Assembly: GCA_031285625.1 (NCBI GenBank)
Contig: JAITVV010000017.1
Span: 62,001 to 126,000 of the forward strand
Length of the DNA: 64,000 nucleotides
Direction: 5' to 3'
DNA from: Prevotella sp.
GTDB taxonomy: Bacteria > Bacteroidota > Bacteroidia > Bacteroidales > Dysgonomonadaceae
The first letter of the stretch is position 1. Every line of letters begins with the position of its first letter. The position numbers and the translations under genes were made by a program. Positions 57,477 through 64,000 of the stretch are shown here, piece after piece. The notes beneath the pieces are model-generated. The model had not been told where the DNA came from. It ran no database searches and saw nothing but the letters and a program-made list of their open reading frames with translations.

Positions 57477-57807
57477 ACTAGTAATTAAAGAATTATATGT
57501 TTACAATATGTGTTTTGAATTATTCAATGTATTTTGTCATCCTTCGTTGCACTCAGGATCTCTTTCCTTTTGTCCTTGATAAATGGGTCGGGATACTTCC
57601 TGTCGTCAGCATGACAACAACGGTCACATAAGCCTAGCATATGTAAATACCTCAACAAATGTTTATCAAAACTTAAAATAATCGCTAAAGATAATACTTC
57701 CACTTTCTGCACACAAGACCAAATATAGTTTTCCTTTCATTCTAAATAATGAAAATGAGTATCTGTTCTCACATTTTTGATAACTTTGCGAAAACAAATA
57801 GTATTTG
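57477..57807. other. Gene-free spacer with GTCAT-type repeat and fucosyltransferase promoter
   Basis: 331 bases. A repeat at 57536-57625 (GTCATCCTTCGTTGCACTCA, AGGATCTCTTTCC and GTCAGCATGACAAC) is the reverse-oriented relative of the element after trpA. A TAACTTTG box lies at 57781. A 62-codon minus-strand frame in this stretch is simply the repeat read in translation. Confidence 0.75.
57781..57788 (+). promoter_or_regulatory. -7 box TAACTTTG, candidate promoter of the fucosyltransferase gene
   Basis: Exact TAnnTTTG match 19 bases before the ATG at 57808. Confidence 0.5.
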
Positions 57808-58683
57808 ATGGTTACAGTATTACTTTCGGGTGGATTAGGGAATCAAATGTTCCAGTATGCAGCAGCAAAGGCTTTAGCTACACGCTTGAACACATCACTT
57901 AGAATAGACTTGTATACTTTTACAAAAAAGACACAAGCTACTGTGCGCCCCTACGAACTGGATATTTTCAATATCGTAAACTTACCTGAACGCTCTACAT
58001 TAAAAGGTAAACTGATAACAAAAGCAAGACCATTTATACAAAAACACAGGACCTTCTTTCAGAAATTCGGTATTCTCACCGATACTTATGCAATCCTTTA
58101 CCAGCCTGTTTTTGAATCAATAACCGGTAATATAACAATGTCAGGATATTTTCAGAATGAAAAATATTTTAAAGATATAGTAAAGGTACTGAGGAATGAT
58201 TTTACTTTCAAAAGCCCTTTAATTGATGATAATCTGAAAGTTTCAGACAAAATACGCTCTTCGCAATCTGTCGCAATACATATACGAAGAGGTGATTATC
58301 TAAGTCAAAATTCTCAATCGAATTTCATCACGTTGGATAAAGCATATTATGAGAAAGCGATCCGGTTAGCTATAAACCAGATTAAGAATCCGGAATTCTT
58401 TGTTTTTTCTGAAGATTTTGAATGGATAAAAGAAAATCTTAATTTTGAGAATTACCCTGTAACCTTTATTGATTGGAACAAAGGTAAGAACAGCTATATA
58501 GATATGCAGCTGATGAGCTTATGCAAACATAATATTATAGCCAATAGCAGCTTTAGCTGGTGGGCAGCGTGGCTCAACAATAATCAGGATAAAGTAGTTA
58601 TCGCACCTGGGCATTGGTTTCAGGATGAGAAAAAAAACATACTGTTGGATGATTTCTATCCTGACGGATGGAAAAAAATATAA
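57808..58683 (+). CDS. Alpha-1,2-fucosyltransferase-like (GT11)
   Basis: 291 residues from ATG 57808; the TTG three bases earlier is not needed. GT11 marks: LLSGGLGNQMFQYAAAKALA (N-terminal loop), VAIHIRRGDYL near 155 (the HxRRGDY donor motif) and ANSSFSWWAAWLNNNQDKV near 250. Adds fucose in alpha-1,2 linkage to surface glycans, by family. Followed by GT2 and LicD genes, so the three likely build or decorate one glycan. Confidence 0.92.
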   Translation: MVTVLLSGGLGNQMFQYAAAKALATRLNTSLRIDLYTFTKKTQATVRPYELDIFNIVNLPERSTLKGKLITKARPFIQKHRTFFQKFGILTDTYAILYQPVFESITGNITMSGYFQNEKYFKDIVKVLRNDFTFKSPLIDDNLKVSDKIRSSQSVAIHIRRGDYLSQNSQSNFITLDKAYYEKAIRLAINQIKNPEFFVFSEDFEWIKENLNFENYPVTFIDWNKGKNSYIDMQLMSLCKHNIIANSSFSWWAAWLNNNQDKVVIAPGHWFQDEKKNILLDDFYPDGWKKI

Positions 58684-58724
58684 ATATTTATCTAATAATA
58701 AAGCCTGAAGAGAAGTAAGAAAAG

Positions 58725-58774
58725 AAAGGTAACAATAAAAAACATGCAAAAAACTGTTACTTTTGTCACTTTTT
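58725..58774 (+). repeat. Dispersed palindromic intergenic repeat, copy 5
   Basis: AAAGGTAACA (58725-58734) and TGTTAC with the tandem GTTACTTTT GTCACTTTTT (58756-58774). Similarity to copies 3 and 4 extends over about 60 bases, including the A-rich loop with ATGCAAAA. Confidence 0.75.
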
Positions 58775-58809
58775 AATATTAATAATCAGTTACTCAAACA
58801 CATAACAAT

Positions 58810-59814
58810 ATGCCTAGAGTTTCCATACTAATGCCTGTATATAATGCTGAACAGTATATTGCTCAAGCACTGGAAAGCATTATATCACAAAGCTTCAAAG
58901 ACTGGGAACTGATACTTATAAATGACGCTTCGACAGACAATAGCGAATCTGTTATTATGCAATATGAAGATGACCGCATTTATTATATAAAGAATACGGA
59001 AAACCTGAGATTGATAAAAACATTAAATAAAGGGATTGGCTACTGTGACGGAGAGTATATTGCACGAATGGATGCCGATGATATTTGCCTGCCTGACAGA
59101 TTGAAACAACAGGTAGACTTTCTGGACAATCATACCGATTACCTGATGTGTGGAACAAATGCCAGCGTGATTGACAGTAATAGTAGAAGGACAGGAAAAA
59201 TACATAACCTGACAGATAATAACTACTTACAGATAAGTCTCCTGTTCTCCCCTTCATTTATTCATCCAAGTATGATGATCCGTAAGGAGATCCTGCAACA
59301 AAACAAATATGATGAAGCGTATAAGCATGTGGAAGACTATGAGTTATGGTGTAGAATAGCCAAACAAGGAAAGATAGCAAACCTTGATAATGAATTACTT
59401 AAATATCGATGGCATAGTACAAATGTTTCGGTTGTAAACAATCAGGCACAAGACGAGCTAAAAGAGAGGATAATCAGGAAGGAACTGGAAAGGTTGAATA
59501 TAATACCGACGGATAAAGAGTTATACTGCCATAAGATAACCTTCCAACTATACAATCTTGGGAATAAGCAGGATATAACTGTAGATTTGTATAATGAGGT
59601 ATCTGGTTGGTTTTCTAAACTGATCCATCACAATCAGATAAAAAAAATATACAATCAATCCGATCTTATTGCATTCCTCTGGTCGCGATGGGTGGTATTG
59701 TGCATCTCCCAGAAGAGTTACAGCAAGACACTTGCTCCGCCATTTTCATCATTCAAGCCTGCAATAATAACGAAACTGGTAAAACTTATCCTTTTCCTAA
59801 GAAAGAAAAAATGA
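58810..59814 (+). CDS. Family 2 glycosyltransferase
   Basis: 334 residues. GT2 GT-A fold: RVSILMPVYNAEQYIAQALE, then SIISQSFKDWELILINDAST, the D-x-D region YIARMDADDICLPDRLKQQV and the catalytic-base loop HVEDYELWCRIAKQGKI. The C-terminal part is helical with a basic end, LFLRKKK. Soluble or peripheral in the cytosol. Its stop TGA overlaps the ATG of the LicD gene (ATGA), indicating coupled translation. Confidence 0.92.
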   Translation: MPRVSILMPVYNAEQYIAQALESIISQSFKDWELILINDASTDNSESVIMQYEDDRIYYIKNTENLRLIKTLNKGIGYCDGEYIARMDADDICLPDRLKQQVDFLDNHTDYLMCGTNASVIDSNSRRTGKIHNLTDNNYLQISLLFSPSFIHPSMMIRKEILQQNKYDEAYKHVEDYELWCRIAKQGKIANLDNELLKYRWHSTNVSVVNNQAQDELKERIIRKELERLNIIPTDKELYCHKITFQLYNLGNKQDITVDLYNEVSGWFSKLIHHNQIKKIYNQSDLIAFLWSRWVVLCISQKSYSKTLAPPFSSFKPAIITKLVKLILFLRKKK

Positions 59815-60617
59815 CAGAAACAGAAGAACTAAGAGAAATATATAATCCCGATGGCTCGGAACTAAGAACATTACAATTAAAGATGTTGGATATTCTTACC
59901 ACTGTTGCCTCCATCTGCGATAAGTATGAAATACCTTATTGGATAAGTGGGGGAACCCTGTTGGGTGCTGTTCGTCATGGTGGCTTTATCCCTTGGGATG
60001 ATGATATAGATATTGAATTGCTCCGTCCTGATTATAAAAAGCTGCTAAGTATCCTACCCAAAGAGCTTCCCGGCAATCTATATTTGCAGACACCCAAAGA
60101 GAAAAGTTACAGGCTGCTATTTTCGAAAGTCAGGGACAGACACTCTATAGTTTACTCCGAAGAAGAAGATATGGCCAAATACAAAGAAAAAGGAATCTTT
60201 ATTGATATCTTTCCTGAGGAAAGAAGTTACAGATGGATGAAAAATATAGTTGACTTCTTTTATGGGAGAGCCTTTAGGCGGCTGAAGAGAGGACGCGCAT
60301 TCCATTCTTTAAAATACTTTTTTGAATATGCGACATCACTCCTTTTATACCCCATAGGGATTGTCTTGATTTGCATATCAAGGGCCATATGTAGTATTAC
60401 CAAACCTGACAATATACTGCACAGTTATGGGATAGGAAACTCTACAAACCATAATGCAAAATATATGTTTCCGGTTAGCAAGATTAAATTTGAAGGGAAA
60501 GAGTTCTATGCGCCGAAGGAACCCGACACTTACCTGCGTAAACAGTATGGAGACTATACAACCATCCCTCCCAAAGAGAAACGGGCTACCCACTTTATGA
60601 AGGTGGAGTATCTATAA
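59811..60617 (+). CDS. LicD family phosphotransferase
   Basis: 268 residues from ATG 59811; a longer in-frame start at 59688 lies inside the GT2 gene. LicD marks: YWISGGTLLGAVRHGGFIPW followed by DDDIDIELLRPDYKK, a nucleotidyltransferase-type Gly-Gly and DxD. Middle: GIFIDIFPEE and a weak hydrophobic stretch near 185-205. Adds phosphocholine or a similar phospho-group to surface glycans. Its stop overlaps the stop of the HU-LysM gene by six bases in convergent orientation. Confidence 0.9.
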   Translation: MTETEELREIYNPDGSELRTLQLKMLDILTTVASICDKYEIPYWISGGTLLGAVRHGGFIPWDDDIDIELLRPDYKKLLSILPKELPGNLYLQTPKEKSYRLLFSKVRDRHSIVYSEEEDMAKYKEKGIFIDIFPEERSYRWMKNIVDFFYGRAFRRLKRGRAFHSLKYFFEYATSLLLYPIGIVLICISRAICSITKPDNILHSYGIGNSTNHNAKYMFPVSKIKFEGKEFYAPKEPDTYLRKQYGDYTTIPPKEKRATHFMKVEYL

Positions 60618-61877
60618 TCCCATTTCGGAGAAAAGTCTTTGTTCTTTTTGTTTAGCTGTATCGATTGACGTTTTGTCCTGAGGATTAATCCCGTATTTTG
60701 CCGGGAATGGGATTATAAGTTTAGTTCCCAGAGGTACATTATTAGCATTCTTGATCTTATCCTTATTCTCTTCATAGATATAGACCCAAAAGGACTTATG
60801 CCCATAATATTTGAGAGAGATATTACGAAGCGTACTTCCCGGCTCTATTGTGATCGTCGCCAAATGCGCAGAAGTTGTGGCATTATCTGTCGTTGCATTT
60901 TCGGTTTTATCAGGAATGATAGAAGAATCTATAACTTCGTCCACACGGGCAGAGTCTATTTTATTTGTCAAGGAATCCGGAGTGATCACAGCATCTAACT
61001 TCTTATCCTCAACTATAGCTACGGTCTTATTTTCATCAGCAGGACCTTCTGTCAGGAATTTAGCTATTTCCTGAAAATATAATCCACCAATAAAAAATCC
61101 TGCAATGATAAGGAATATAAAGAAAGCCAGAGAGATAAAACGTCGTCTTCTTTTCGAAGCATGTTTTTGGTCTACCAGTACTGTTTCGGTGTCATCTGAT
61201 TCGACCTTATCTTCCGGCAAAGGAGAAGAAATTGCTTCATTCTGTTGCTGTTCTACTTCTGCTACTGATGGTACATTTTCAATAGTCTCTACTTCTTCCT
61301 GAACGACTATATCCTGAGTTTTTTCAATTATATCTTCAGATGGTTCATTCTCTATAATTTCAGCAACCGGAGGAACAACTTCTCCTACATATTCTATACC
61401 ATCAGGCTTATCAGTTACAATTTCCTGTAAAATAATGGAGGATATAGCGGCTTCGTTACTTACAGACGTTTCTGTTGATTCAACTTCATCTATATTAGCT
61501 TCCGACTCCACTAACTCAGAAGACTCTTCCTTCTCTATATAATCAAAGGATACACCATCTTCAAGCACTACACTTTCGAAATGAGCAAACGGGCGATTTA
61601 TCGCTTCCTTCAATGATTTATCAGGAGTAAAACTCAATTTATAATGTGCAGCTATCTCAATAGCTTCACCTGTGTTTACATCAACACTCCTGCGCGCATT
61701 GACTTTTACAAGCTTAAAGACACCAAATTCTTTGATCTTTACAGACTCATTATTCTCTATATTCTCTGAAATAACAGCTATAAGTTCGCGCAAAAAAGAC
61801 TCAGCATCCTTCTTGGTTATCTCCTGTTTCTTAGCCAGAAGATCAATCAAATCCTGTAGACTAAGACGTTCATTCAT
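60612..61877 (-). CDS. HU-transmembrane-LysM fusion protein
   Basis: 421 residues with three parts. (1) HU/IHF-type domain at 1-95: LQDLIDLLAKKQEITKKDAE, SVKIKEFGVFKLVKVNARR and KLSFTPDKSLKEAINR. (2) An acidic linker (100-235) rich in Glu and Val, then SKRRRRF (241-247) and one membrane helix at 247-267. (3) A periplasmic linker and a LysM domain at about 339-393 (ATITIEPGSTLRNISLKYYG to LGTKLIIPF). The positive-inside rule puts the HU domain in the cytosol and LysM in the periplasm, so the protein could link DNA to peptidoglycan. Starts eight bases inside the upstream HU gene. Architecture is clear; function is inference. Confidence 0.9.
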   Translation of the reverse strand: MNERLSLQDLIDLLAKKQEITKKDAESFLRELIAVISENIENNESVKIKEFGVFKLVKVNARRSVDVNTGEAIEIAAHYKLSFTPDKSLKEAINRPFAHFESVVLEDGVSFDYIEKEESSELVESEANIDEVESTETSVSNEAAISSIILQEIVTDKPDGIEYVGEVVPPVAEIIENEPSEDIIEKTQDIVVQEEVETIENVPSVAEVEQQQNEAISSPLPEDKVESDDTETVLVDQKHASKRRRRFISLAFFIFLIIAGFFIGGLYFQEIAKFLTEGPADENKTVAIVEDKKLDAVITPDSLTNKIDSARVDEVIDSSIIPDKTENATTDNATTSAHLATITIEPGSTLRNISLKYYGHKSFWVYIYEENKDKIKNANNVPLGTKLIIPFPAKYGINPQDKTSIDTAKQKEQRLFSEMGL

Positions 61878-62166
61878 TTACTTCAAGTTTTTTAAGTGTT
61901 TCTTTGATAGTTTGTCCCGGGCGGAATGACAAAGATATTTTAGGAGGAATCAAGAACCGTTGTTTCGAAACCGGATTTACAGATATACGCTCTCCTTTTT
62001 TTTTCGTTTCAAATAAGCCAAACCCTTGGATATTAATAGAATTATTCTCCTCTAAATTCGTATTGATAATGGAGACAGTAGCTTCCAATATCTCAGAAGC
62101 TTGGCGTTGTGTCCATCCTAAACGCTTAGCCAAAGTTGCTATTAATTCCTGGTTTGTCATAGTCAT
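61870..62166 (-). CDS. HU family DNA-binding protein
   Basis: 98 residues. MTNQELIATLAKRLGWTQRQ begins the HU helix pair; INIQGFGLFETKKKGERISV and PKISLSFRPGQTIKETL form the beta arm and C-terminal helix. Met1 (62166) or Met3 (62160) may be the start. Binds and bends DNA. Its last eight bases overlap the start of the HU-TM-LysM gene, which suggests the two form a pair and might heterodimerise. 86 bases downstream of rimO. Confidence 0.92.
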   Translation of the reverse strand: MTMTNQELIATLAKRLGWTQRQASEILEATVSIINTNLEENNSINIQGFGLFETKKKGERISVNPVSKQRFLIPPKISLSFRPGQTIKETLKKLEVNE

Positions 62167-62252: not shown

Positions 62253-63548
62253 TTATAACACTTCTCCATATAAATCGAAAGATTGTGTACCTGTTATCTT
62301 AACATCATAAAACTCTCCAATATTAAGCATTTTATTTTTCTTTATCAAGACCTCCGGATCAACTTCCGGGGAATCAAACTCTGTACGGCCAATATAATAA
62401 TCACCTTCTTCTTTATCTATAATGACTTTCAGTGTTTGTCCTATTTTATTATCATTGATCTCAAAAGCGATTCTCTCCTGTACTGACATTAGCAAGTCCA
62501 TTCGTTCTTGCTTTGTAGTGTCAGAAATGCTATCCTTGTAATGCTTATAAGCATATGTCCCATCCTCATGGGAATATGGGAATGCTCCCATCCTTTCAAA
62601 ACGCACATCTTTCACAAATTGCAAAAGATCTTCAAAGTCTTTTTTTGTTTCTCCCGGATGACCAACCATTAATGTCGTACGCAAATGTATTCCGGGCACC
62701 TCTTCCCTTATACGACGCATCAAGTCATAAGTTTCCCGCTTTGATATATTACGACGCATCTTGGTCAAGATATTATCACTTACATGTTGCAAAGCTATAT
62801 CAAGATATTTACATACATTATCATTCTCCCGCATCACTCTAAGTAGATCATAAGGGAAATTTGCCGGATAGGCATAATGAAGACGAATCCATTCTACACC
62901 CTCTATCTTTGCAATACGTTCTATTAGCTCCGGAAGCTTAGCCTGCTTATAGTTATCATAACCATAAAAAGACAGATCCTGGGCTATCACCTGAAATTCT
63001 TTAACTCCTGATATTACCAAATGCCTCACTTCTTCTTCTATCTCCTCTATAGGGCGAGACTGATGTTTTCCGGTCATTATAGGAATCGAGCAATACGAAC
63101 AAGTACGATTACATCCTTCAGATATTTTAAGATAAGCATAATGCTTTGGAGTAGTAATACTACGCTCCAAAGCTAAGTCCTGATTAAAAGACTTACCTAA
63201 ATCTGCTATAAGAGCCTTCCAGTTAAACTTACCATAGAAATTATCTACTTCTGGTATTTCAACCTTTAATTCATCCATATATCTCTCTGTAAGACATCCC
63301 ATAACAAAGAGCTTGTTCAATTTTCGTTCTTTTTTTGCCTCTGCAAACTCAAGAATCATATTAATAGATTCTTCTTTGGCATCGCCAATAAATCCACATG
63401 TATTGATTACAACAATTTCTCCTTCCGATTTATCAGGATCATGTTTTACGGTATAACCATTTGCTAATAGTTGTTTCATCAACAACTCTGAATCCACCAG
63501 GTTTTTAGAACAACCAAGTGTTATTACATCAATTCTATTCTTCTTCAT
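62253..63548 (-). CDS. rimO: Ribosomal protein S12 methylthiotransferase RimO
   Basis: 431 residues. N-terminal UPF0004 domain with three cysteines (TLGCSKNLVDSELLMKQL, NTCGFIGDAKEESI and GCLTERYMDEL), the radical SAM motif EGCNRTCSYCSIP (C-x3-C-x2-C), and a C-terminal TRAM domain (about 365-431). The enzyme adds a methylthio group to an Asp of S12; RimO is favoured over MiaB by length and by ISEGCNRTCSYCSIPIMTGK. It starts three bases after the ftsY stop. Confidence 0.95.
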   Translation of the reverse strand: MKKNRIDVITLGCSKNLVDSELLMKQLLANGYTVKHDPDKSEGEIVVINTCGFIGDAKEESINMILEFAEAKKERKLNKLFVMGCLTERYMDELKVEIPEVDNFYGKFNWKALIADLGKSFNQDLALERSITTPKHYAYLKISEGCNRTCSYCSIPIMTGKHQSRPIEEIEEEVRHLVISGVKEFQVIAQDLSFYGYDNYKQAKLPELIERIAKIEGVEWIRLHYAYPANFPYDLLRVMRENDNVCKYLDIALQHVSDNILTKMRRNISKRETYDLMRRIREEVPGIHLRTTLMVGHPGETKKDFEDLLQFVKDVRFERMGAFPYSHEDGTYAYKHYKDSISDTTKQERMDLLMSVQERIAFEINDNKIGQTLKVIIDKEEGDYYIGRTEFDSPEVDPEVLIKKNKMLNIGEFYDVKITGTQSFDLYGEVL

Positions 63549-63551
63549 TTT

Positions 63552-64000
63552 TTACGCTCCAAAAAGGCTATCGACAAATTCCTTACGTCTAAAGACTTGC
63601 AAGTCATCAATGCCCTCTCCCAATCCAATATATTTTACCGGAATCTTAAACTGATCTGAAATACCGATTACAACACCACCTTTTGCCGTACCATCCAGTT
63701 TGGTGATAGCCAGCGCGGTAACATCTGTTGCCGCCGTAAATTGGGTAGCCTGTTCAAATGCATTTTGTCCGGTCGAACCATCCAGTACAAGTAAAACTTC
63801 GTGAGGTGCTCCGGGAACTATTTTATCCATCACCTTCTTTATCTTGGTAAGCTCGTTCATCAGTCCAACCTTATTATGTAAACGACCGGCTGTATCTATG
63901 ATTACTACATCTGCATTATTTGCCTTTGCAGAACTCAAGGTATCAAAAGCTACAGACGCCGGATCCGATCCCATAGCCTGTTTAACCACCGGAACTCCAA
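63552..64000 (-). CDS. ftsY: Signal recognition particle receptor FtsY, 5' truncated by window edge
   Basis: Only the C-terminal 149 residues are inside the window; the frame is open to base 64000 (beginning GVPVVKQAMGSDPASV), so the GTG at 63989 is internal. SRP GTPase marks: DVVIIDTAGRLHNKVGLMNE (G3), LLVLDGSTGQNAFEQA, ALAITKLDGTAKGG (G4, TKLD) and PVKYIGLGEGIDDLQVF near the C-terminus. Delivers SRP-bound ribosomes to the membrane. Heads the ftsY-rimO-HU cluster. Confidence 0.95.
   Translation of the reverse strand, partial: GVPVVKQAMGSDPASVAFDTLSSAKANNADVVIIDTAGRLHNKVGLMNELTKIKKVMDKIVPGAPHEVLLVLDGSTGQNAFEQATQFTAATDVTALAITKLDGTAKGGVVIGISDQFKIPVKYIGLGEGIDDLQVFRRKEFVDSLFGA

Follow-up and report, generated by a model that had tools for sequence, protein, structure and literature searches.

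A membrane-anchored HU-LysM protein and its HU partner in Bacteroidales: a candidate link between nucleoid and cell wall

The window, the whole 64,000-nucleotide stretch of DNA that was analyzed, encodes on its minus strand a 421-residue protein (60612–61877) that was delineated from the open reading frame list and from Pfam, NCBIfam, and PHROG profile matches. Residues 1–95 (61593–61877) form an HU domain with an arm of low basicity, the tip of which (SVDVNTG) lacks proline; the Pfam profile PF00216 matches residues 8–94 with an E-value of 6.7e-24, covering profile positions 4–90 of 90. There follow an acidic, presumably cytoplasmic spacer (residues 96–245, 61143–61592; 41 Asp and Glu versus 9 Lys and Arg), which begins directly after HU with a PFAxFE motif (61575–61592), and a single predicted membrane helix at about residues 247–266 (61080–61139; hydropathy 2.6), which is preceded by the sequence KRRRR. 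Toward the C-terminus, profile matches place a LysM-type domain at residues 340–391 (60705–60860), with the signature FWVYIYEEN, and this domain is followed by a conserved tail. The first-pass annotation had proposed this same succession of an HU-type domain, an acidic spacer, a basic stretch with one membrane helix, and a C-terminal LysM domain, and each of these elements is borne out, the last through NCBIfam and PHROG, though Pfam gives no LysM.

A second HU gene, which the first-pass annotation had missed, lies at 61870–62166 on the same strand. It encodes a 98-residue protein with a basic arm and an NP tip that matches PF00216 with an E-value of 5.6e-23 over profile positions 1–89 of 90, and it overlaps the start of the HU-LysM gene by 8 nt (ATGAATGA). 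Further upstream and in the same direction (minus strand) are a gene at 62253–63548 with Radical_SAM, UPF0004, and TRAM_2 domains, which we take to be rimO, and a partial open reading frame at 63552–63998, presumably the end of ftsY. A promoter scan gave 14 sites versus a shuffle mean of 12.0, and a terminator scan gave 0 versus a shuffle mean of 2.0.

We compared 110 loci, 30 of them from a genome search and 80 being the best of 149 from named genomes, with some genomes present in both sets. HU and LysM share one open reading frame in 107 of these loci, corresponding to 98 distinct proteins, and a chance fusion or a frameshift artefact was rejected on this ground. Of the three other loci, L028 and L030 are truncated where the fetched sequence ends, and L035 encodes an HU-TM protein without LysM. 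In all 107 full-architecture loci, the small HU gene lies directly upstream on the same strand, and the two reading frames overlap in 64, by 8 nt in 34 and by 4 nt in 24; the two genes form a conserved two-gene system. The spacer is acidic in 98/98 distinct proteins, and in 77 sequences the PFAxFE motif has a nearly invariant Pro96 and invariant Phe97 and Phe100. Lengths vary widely across the 98 proteins, with spacers of 52–330 and linkers of 15–119 residues. Two further candidate explanations were set aside: no PADLOC match at E ≤ 0.01 was found for either the large protein or the small HU that would indicate a defense system, and the conserved chromosomal neighbors speak against a phage or plasmid origin.

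Each of the 98 distinct proteins contains one hydrophobic segment, with a lowest hydropathy of 1.53 and a value of at least 1.6 in 95 of them, and no second segment was found in any at 1.6. Lys and Arg residues flanking the helix are more numerous on its N-terminal side in 87 proteins, equal in 8, and fewer in 3. Together with the acidic spacer, the single segment and this charge bias form the pattern of a protein with HU inside and LysM outside, a topology that we regard as very likely.

In the window protein, residues 332–390 or thereabouts match NCBIfam PRK11198 with an E-value of 3.7e-5, which is far under the 134-bit cutoff of that model, and the C-terminus matches the endolysin profile PHROG 380 with an E-value of 1.3e-9; the Pfam LysM profile PF01476 gave no match even at an E-value of 5. 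Among relatives, 39/39 match the PHROG endolysin profile, and 3 of 39 C-terminal pieces match Pfam LysM at E ≤ 0.01. The domain is conserved like HU, at 1.50 bits, and FWVYIYEEN is the signature of this family's LysM-type domain. The nearest solved relative of its profile is the LysM domain of Kbp (7pvc; E-value 5.6e-10). Binding of the LysM side to peptidoglycan is reasonably probable. The same LysM subtype, together with the tail, is also found at the end of an outer-membrane protein of the OmpA family that lacks HU (L201:276-1952). Two further genera of the window's family have HU-TM proteins that stop just past the helix and contain no LysM (L035:1486-2070 and L184:639-1235); in L184, the partner arm is degenerate as well, with a charge of −3.

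The two HU domains are joined in a single HU-HU-TM-LysM chain in five other genomes (L186, L189, L195, L198, and, weakly, L199), and in L188 the second HU of a fused chain is reduced. These six fusions amount to five changes on the tree, of which at least three are forced by supported branches. The sequences also diverge jointly: in 43 loci, the distances of small and big HU show a correlation of 0.834 (0.712 as a partial correlation given MoxR), versus 0.488 for small HU and LysM and 0.396 for big HU and LysM, values that do not represent independent data points. Among the 35 armed loci alone, this contrast shrinks to a partial correlation of 0.683 for the two HU domains versus 0.598 and 0.516. 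In a tree built from 75 domains, namely 22 small and 22 big HU taken from every fourth armed pair and 31 ordinary HU, a supported branch sets off the small HU as a group, and another does so for the big HU; the program warned of few columns and long branches.

The arms decay together. Among 98 pairs, 11 have a big HU without an arm, and their partners have arm charges of −5 to +1; the partners in the other 87 have charges of +4 to +7. In a larger set of 131 pairs, from which L201 (no HU), duplicate proteins, and L135 and L147 (whole small HU absent from the fetched stretch) were left out, the partner charge is at least +4 (+4 to +7) in 107/110 pairs whose big arm is full-length and at most +2 in 19/21 in which it is short. 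The exceptions are of two kinds: in L184, L185, and L190, a full-length big arm with a scrambled-looking tip goes with a partner charge no higher than 0, and in L195 and L196, a short big arm goes with one of +4. Short arms correspond to eight changes on the best tree, four of them forced. A sign test on the four independent pairs on supported branches, which is underpowered, gave the same direction in 3.1 on average and never the opposite one, with a median p of 0.25. Fusions, joint divergence, and coupled arm decay thus suggest that the two HU domains work together. The earlier notion of one HU domain as the DNA side consequently gives way to a functional unit that very probably consists of two HU subunits. 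A heterodimer of the small HU and the anchored HU is likely, and the DNA-facing part would most likely be an IHF-like heterodimer that is moored by the HU-TM-LysM protein.

Of the two HU domains, the anchored one has the weaker arm and its partner the strongly basic one. The 87 of 98 big HU domains that keep the arm have net arm charges of 0 to +6, with a mean of +1.9, and the partner arms in these armed pairs average +5.9; the arms of 31 ordinary Bacteroidales HU proteins average +7.3. The proline of the β-arm of HU and IHF intercalates into DNA. This residue is present at the partner tip in 91/98 and at the big-HU tip in 0/98, where the tip residue is Val in 83, Ile in 4, and a gap in 11. 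Its absence is not decisive, because 8 of the 31 ordinary HU proteins, as read by eye, have RNI in place of NP at the tip; the missing proline was therefore rejected as proof that DNA is not bound. These RNI-tipped proteins (L002 and L177–L183) make up a second type among the ordinary HU proteins of Bacteroidales. Where the arm is present, the big-HU arm columns carry 1.41 bits versus 1.69 bits for the helices, which we call equally conserved. DNA binding is fairly probable in the armed lineages and likely in that of the window, and it appears unlikely in the disarmed ones.

At E ≤ 1e-15, a strict cutoff at which divergent members may be missed, 52 of 295 Bacteroidales genomes contain a match to a LysM-tail profile. 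Among 42 of the 56 LysM-tail matches that were examined, 41 have an N-terminal HU domain (weakly so in L199 and L200), and one is the OmpA-family protein. When 198 genomes drawn from the phylum were searched at E ≤ 1e-10, the window's own genome and three others matched the tail, and those three matches are ordinary LysM proteins without HU. One Bacteroidales locus, L096, comes from a record titled Lachnospiraceae, which is probably mislabeled or a mixed bin.

Of the 80 named-genome loci, the best of 149, 43 have a same-strand MoxR gene downstream; 76 of the loci had at least 1300 nt of downstream sequence, and the distance to MoxR is 120–325 nt in 39 of the 43. DUF58 (34/80), DUF4381 (34/80), and BatA (33/80) type genes, each named from one representative, lie further downstream in the same 80 loci. 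A rimO relative was found in 13 of these 80, and phmmer relatives of the putative ftsY end in 12 of the 110 loci, many of which are too short to reach that position. Two loci, L095 and L117, carry both the rimO and the MoxR neighbor, which suggests one ancestral order. The window has no MoxR-DUF58-Bat cluster next door. In its place, on the opposite strand downstream (57805–60617), are genes that look glycosyltransferase-like by eye and a LicD gene identified by Pfam, a neighborhood of the surface-polysaccharide type.

To our knowledge, little is known about nucleoid positioning relative to the envelope in Bacteroidota. The pair offers a possible explanation in the form of a tether between nucleoid and wall. 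The small HU and the HU domain of the 421-residue protein would form an obligate IHF-like heterodimer, held by the single helix on the cytoplasmic side of the inner membrane, and the periplasmic LysM domain would attach the complex to peptidoglycan. Chromosomal DNA would be gripped, in the lineage of the window, by the basic, proline-tipped arm of the partner together with the weaker arm of the anchored HU, and the pair would in this way fasten the edge of the nucleoid to membrane and wall. Reach would come from the long acidic spacer, which may also repel unspecific DNA. In armless lineages, the complex would serve as an envelope scaffold only. For this explanation as a whole we see an even chance. 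We infer the dimer, its binding to DNA and to peptidoglycan, and its biological role, which could be nucleoid placement or a report of the wall state to the DNA.

At the level of sequence, gene pairing, the 8-nt overlap, domain order, the membrane segment, the charge bias, joint divergence, fusions, and coupled arm decay all speak for the tether, as does the envelope context given by the LysM subtype on the outer-membrane protein of L201; the MoxR gene downstream in 43 of the best 80 of 149 loci counts on the same side. Against it stand the big-HU tips without proline, the repeatedly shortened arms, the two proteins without LysM (L035 and L184), and Kbp as the nearest solved LysM. The repeated loss of arms and the loss of LysM in two genomes mean that a tether cannot be the sole function everywhere. 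Of the DNA-to-wall tether that had been proposed at the outset, the anatomy, the topology with HU inside and LysM outside, and the possible link itself stand. A nucleoid-to-wall tether, unproven as it is, fits most lineages examined. Somewhat more tentatively, we propose that a two-gene IHF-like heterodimer, anchored to peptidoglycan across the inner membrane, forms a direct tie between nucleoid and wall in part of the Bacteroidales, that its genes have been fused several times, and that both arms have been disarmed together more than once, leaving natural DNA-binding-dead controls. The natural variants without arms or without LysM would separate the two activities with no need for engineering. 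A bridge that links DNA directly to the wall within a single complex would be unusual, since the polar tethers that are known, HubP for example, work by way of partner proteins.

The loss of arms also bears on another explanation, rather unlikely in our estimate, in which the HU pair is a protein–protein dimer module that organizes envelope machinery such as MoxR-DUF58-Bat at wall sites, DNA binding being a leftover or secondary. The persistence of pair, helix, and LysM through repeated arm loss agrees with such a scaffold, as do the MoxR-DUF58-BatA type cluster downstream in many of the best 80 of 149 loci and the second HU of the parallel HU-CCDC81-SPOR proteins, which looks armless by eye in five sequences. 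The arm is, however, strongly conserved where present, the partner arm keeps its charge of +4 to +7 in 107/110 pairs with a full-length big arm, and the cluster is not next door in the window. Moreover, deletion of all bat genes in Leptospira biflexa left growth and shape unaltered (PMC3557215), so that a Bat neighborhood alone says little.

The same neighbors of MoxR, DUF58, and BatA type, found in many of the best 80 of 149 loci, would also suit a membrane-bound regulator that responds to the state of the wall by bending promoter DNA at the membrane, whether or not proteolysis releases it. Wall sensing could fall to the LysM side, and IHF-like heterodimers act at specific sites; the wide variation of spacer and linker lengths argues against this mechanism, which we consider improbable. 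More doubtful still is a complex in which LysM binds an ion or another protein rather than peptidoglycan, leaving only a membrane-anchored HU pair. The match to the Kbp LysM, the scarcity of Pfam LysM matches among relatives, and the absence of the domain from L035 and L184 would fit this idea, but the endolysin profile that all 39 relatives match, the predicted periplasmic side, and the occurrence of the same subtype on an OmpA-family protein oppose it.

Kbp (YgaU) is a cytoplasmic protein, and HubP and FimV have the opposite domain order to that of the HU-LysM protein and an indirect link to DNA. The LysM domain of Kbp, which the PDB lists as a potassium-binding protein, is the nearest solved relative of the one described here. 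The features that HubP and FimV have in common with the HU-LysM protein are a periplasmic LysM domain, one membrane region, and an acidic cytoplasmic stretch (PMC12918733); unlike it, they have no HU domain and end in a TPR domain. In the window protein, Pfam scans gave no C-terminal FimV TPR domain. HubP localizes oriC at the pole, and the LysM domain of Pseudomonas putida FimV binds peptidoglycan with no role for the protein in chromosome segregation (PMC12918733). IHF (α/β) and HU heterodimers resemble the pair in that two different HU subunits are expected as one dimer, with a basic, NP-tipped arm on the partner; they differ in that the HU-LysM subunit is membrane-anchored and has no tip proline, its dimer being predicted from sequence.

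The literature that we searched, mainly outside subscription papers, yielded no description of an HU-LysM protein. The first-pass annotation had seen in it a candidate for an undescribed mechanism, but proteins of this kind are already known in part: 107 of the 119 Bacteroidales genomes that were sampled have HU-CCDC81 proteins (PF18174). Among 16 genomes of this sample in which an HU-LysM protein was also examined, 14 have CCDC81, and G063 and G119 do not. A SPOR match was found in four of five examined HU-CCDC81 proteins, L152 having none. The window's own genome encodes such a protein elsewhere, with the order HU-HU-TM-SPOR (L037:775-1701; G000:C52). A 2017 Cell Cycle paper on the clades of the HU superfamily reportedly predicted a role in chromosome partition for HU-CCDC81 proteins. 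With PF18175, the large protein scores 16.4 bits and the small HU 20.7 bits, under the cutoff of 35 bits; PF18174 is not among the matches, and SPOR (PF05036) gave none in the window protein at E-values up to 5. Since the HU-LysM pair misses the profiles that define HU-CCDC81, it is a parallel variant. HU-CCDC81-SPOR (PF18174, PF18175, PF05036) shares with it two HU domains, one membrane helix, and a C-terminal peptidoglycan-binding module, but has its two HU domains, which are of other HU families, on one chain and SPOR in place of LysM. The HU-LysM pair, in contrast, is usually encoded by two genes, has LysM and a long acidic spacer, occupies a narrower range, and keeps the basic arm in most members examined. 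The HU-TM-LysM protein is thus a real and conserved variant of a known architecture, of which HU-CCDC81-SPOR is the closest kind.
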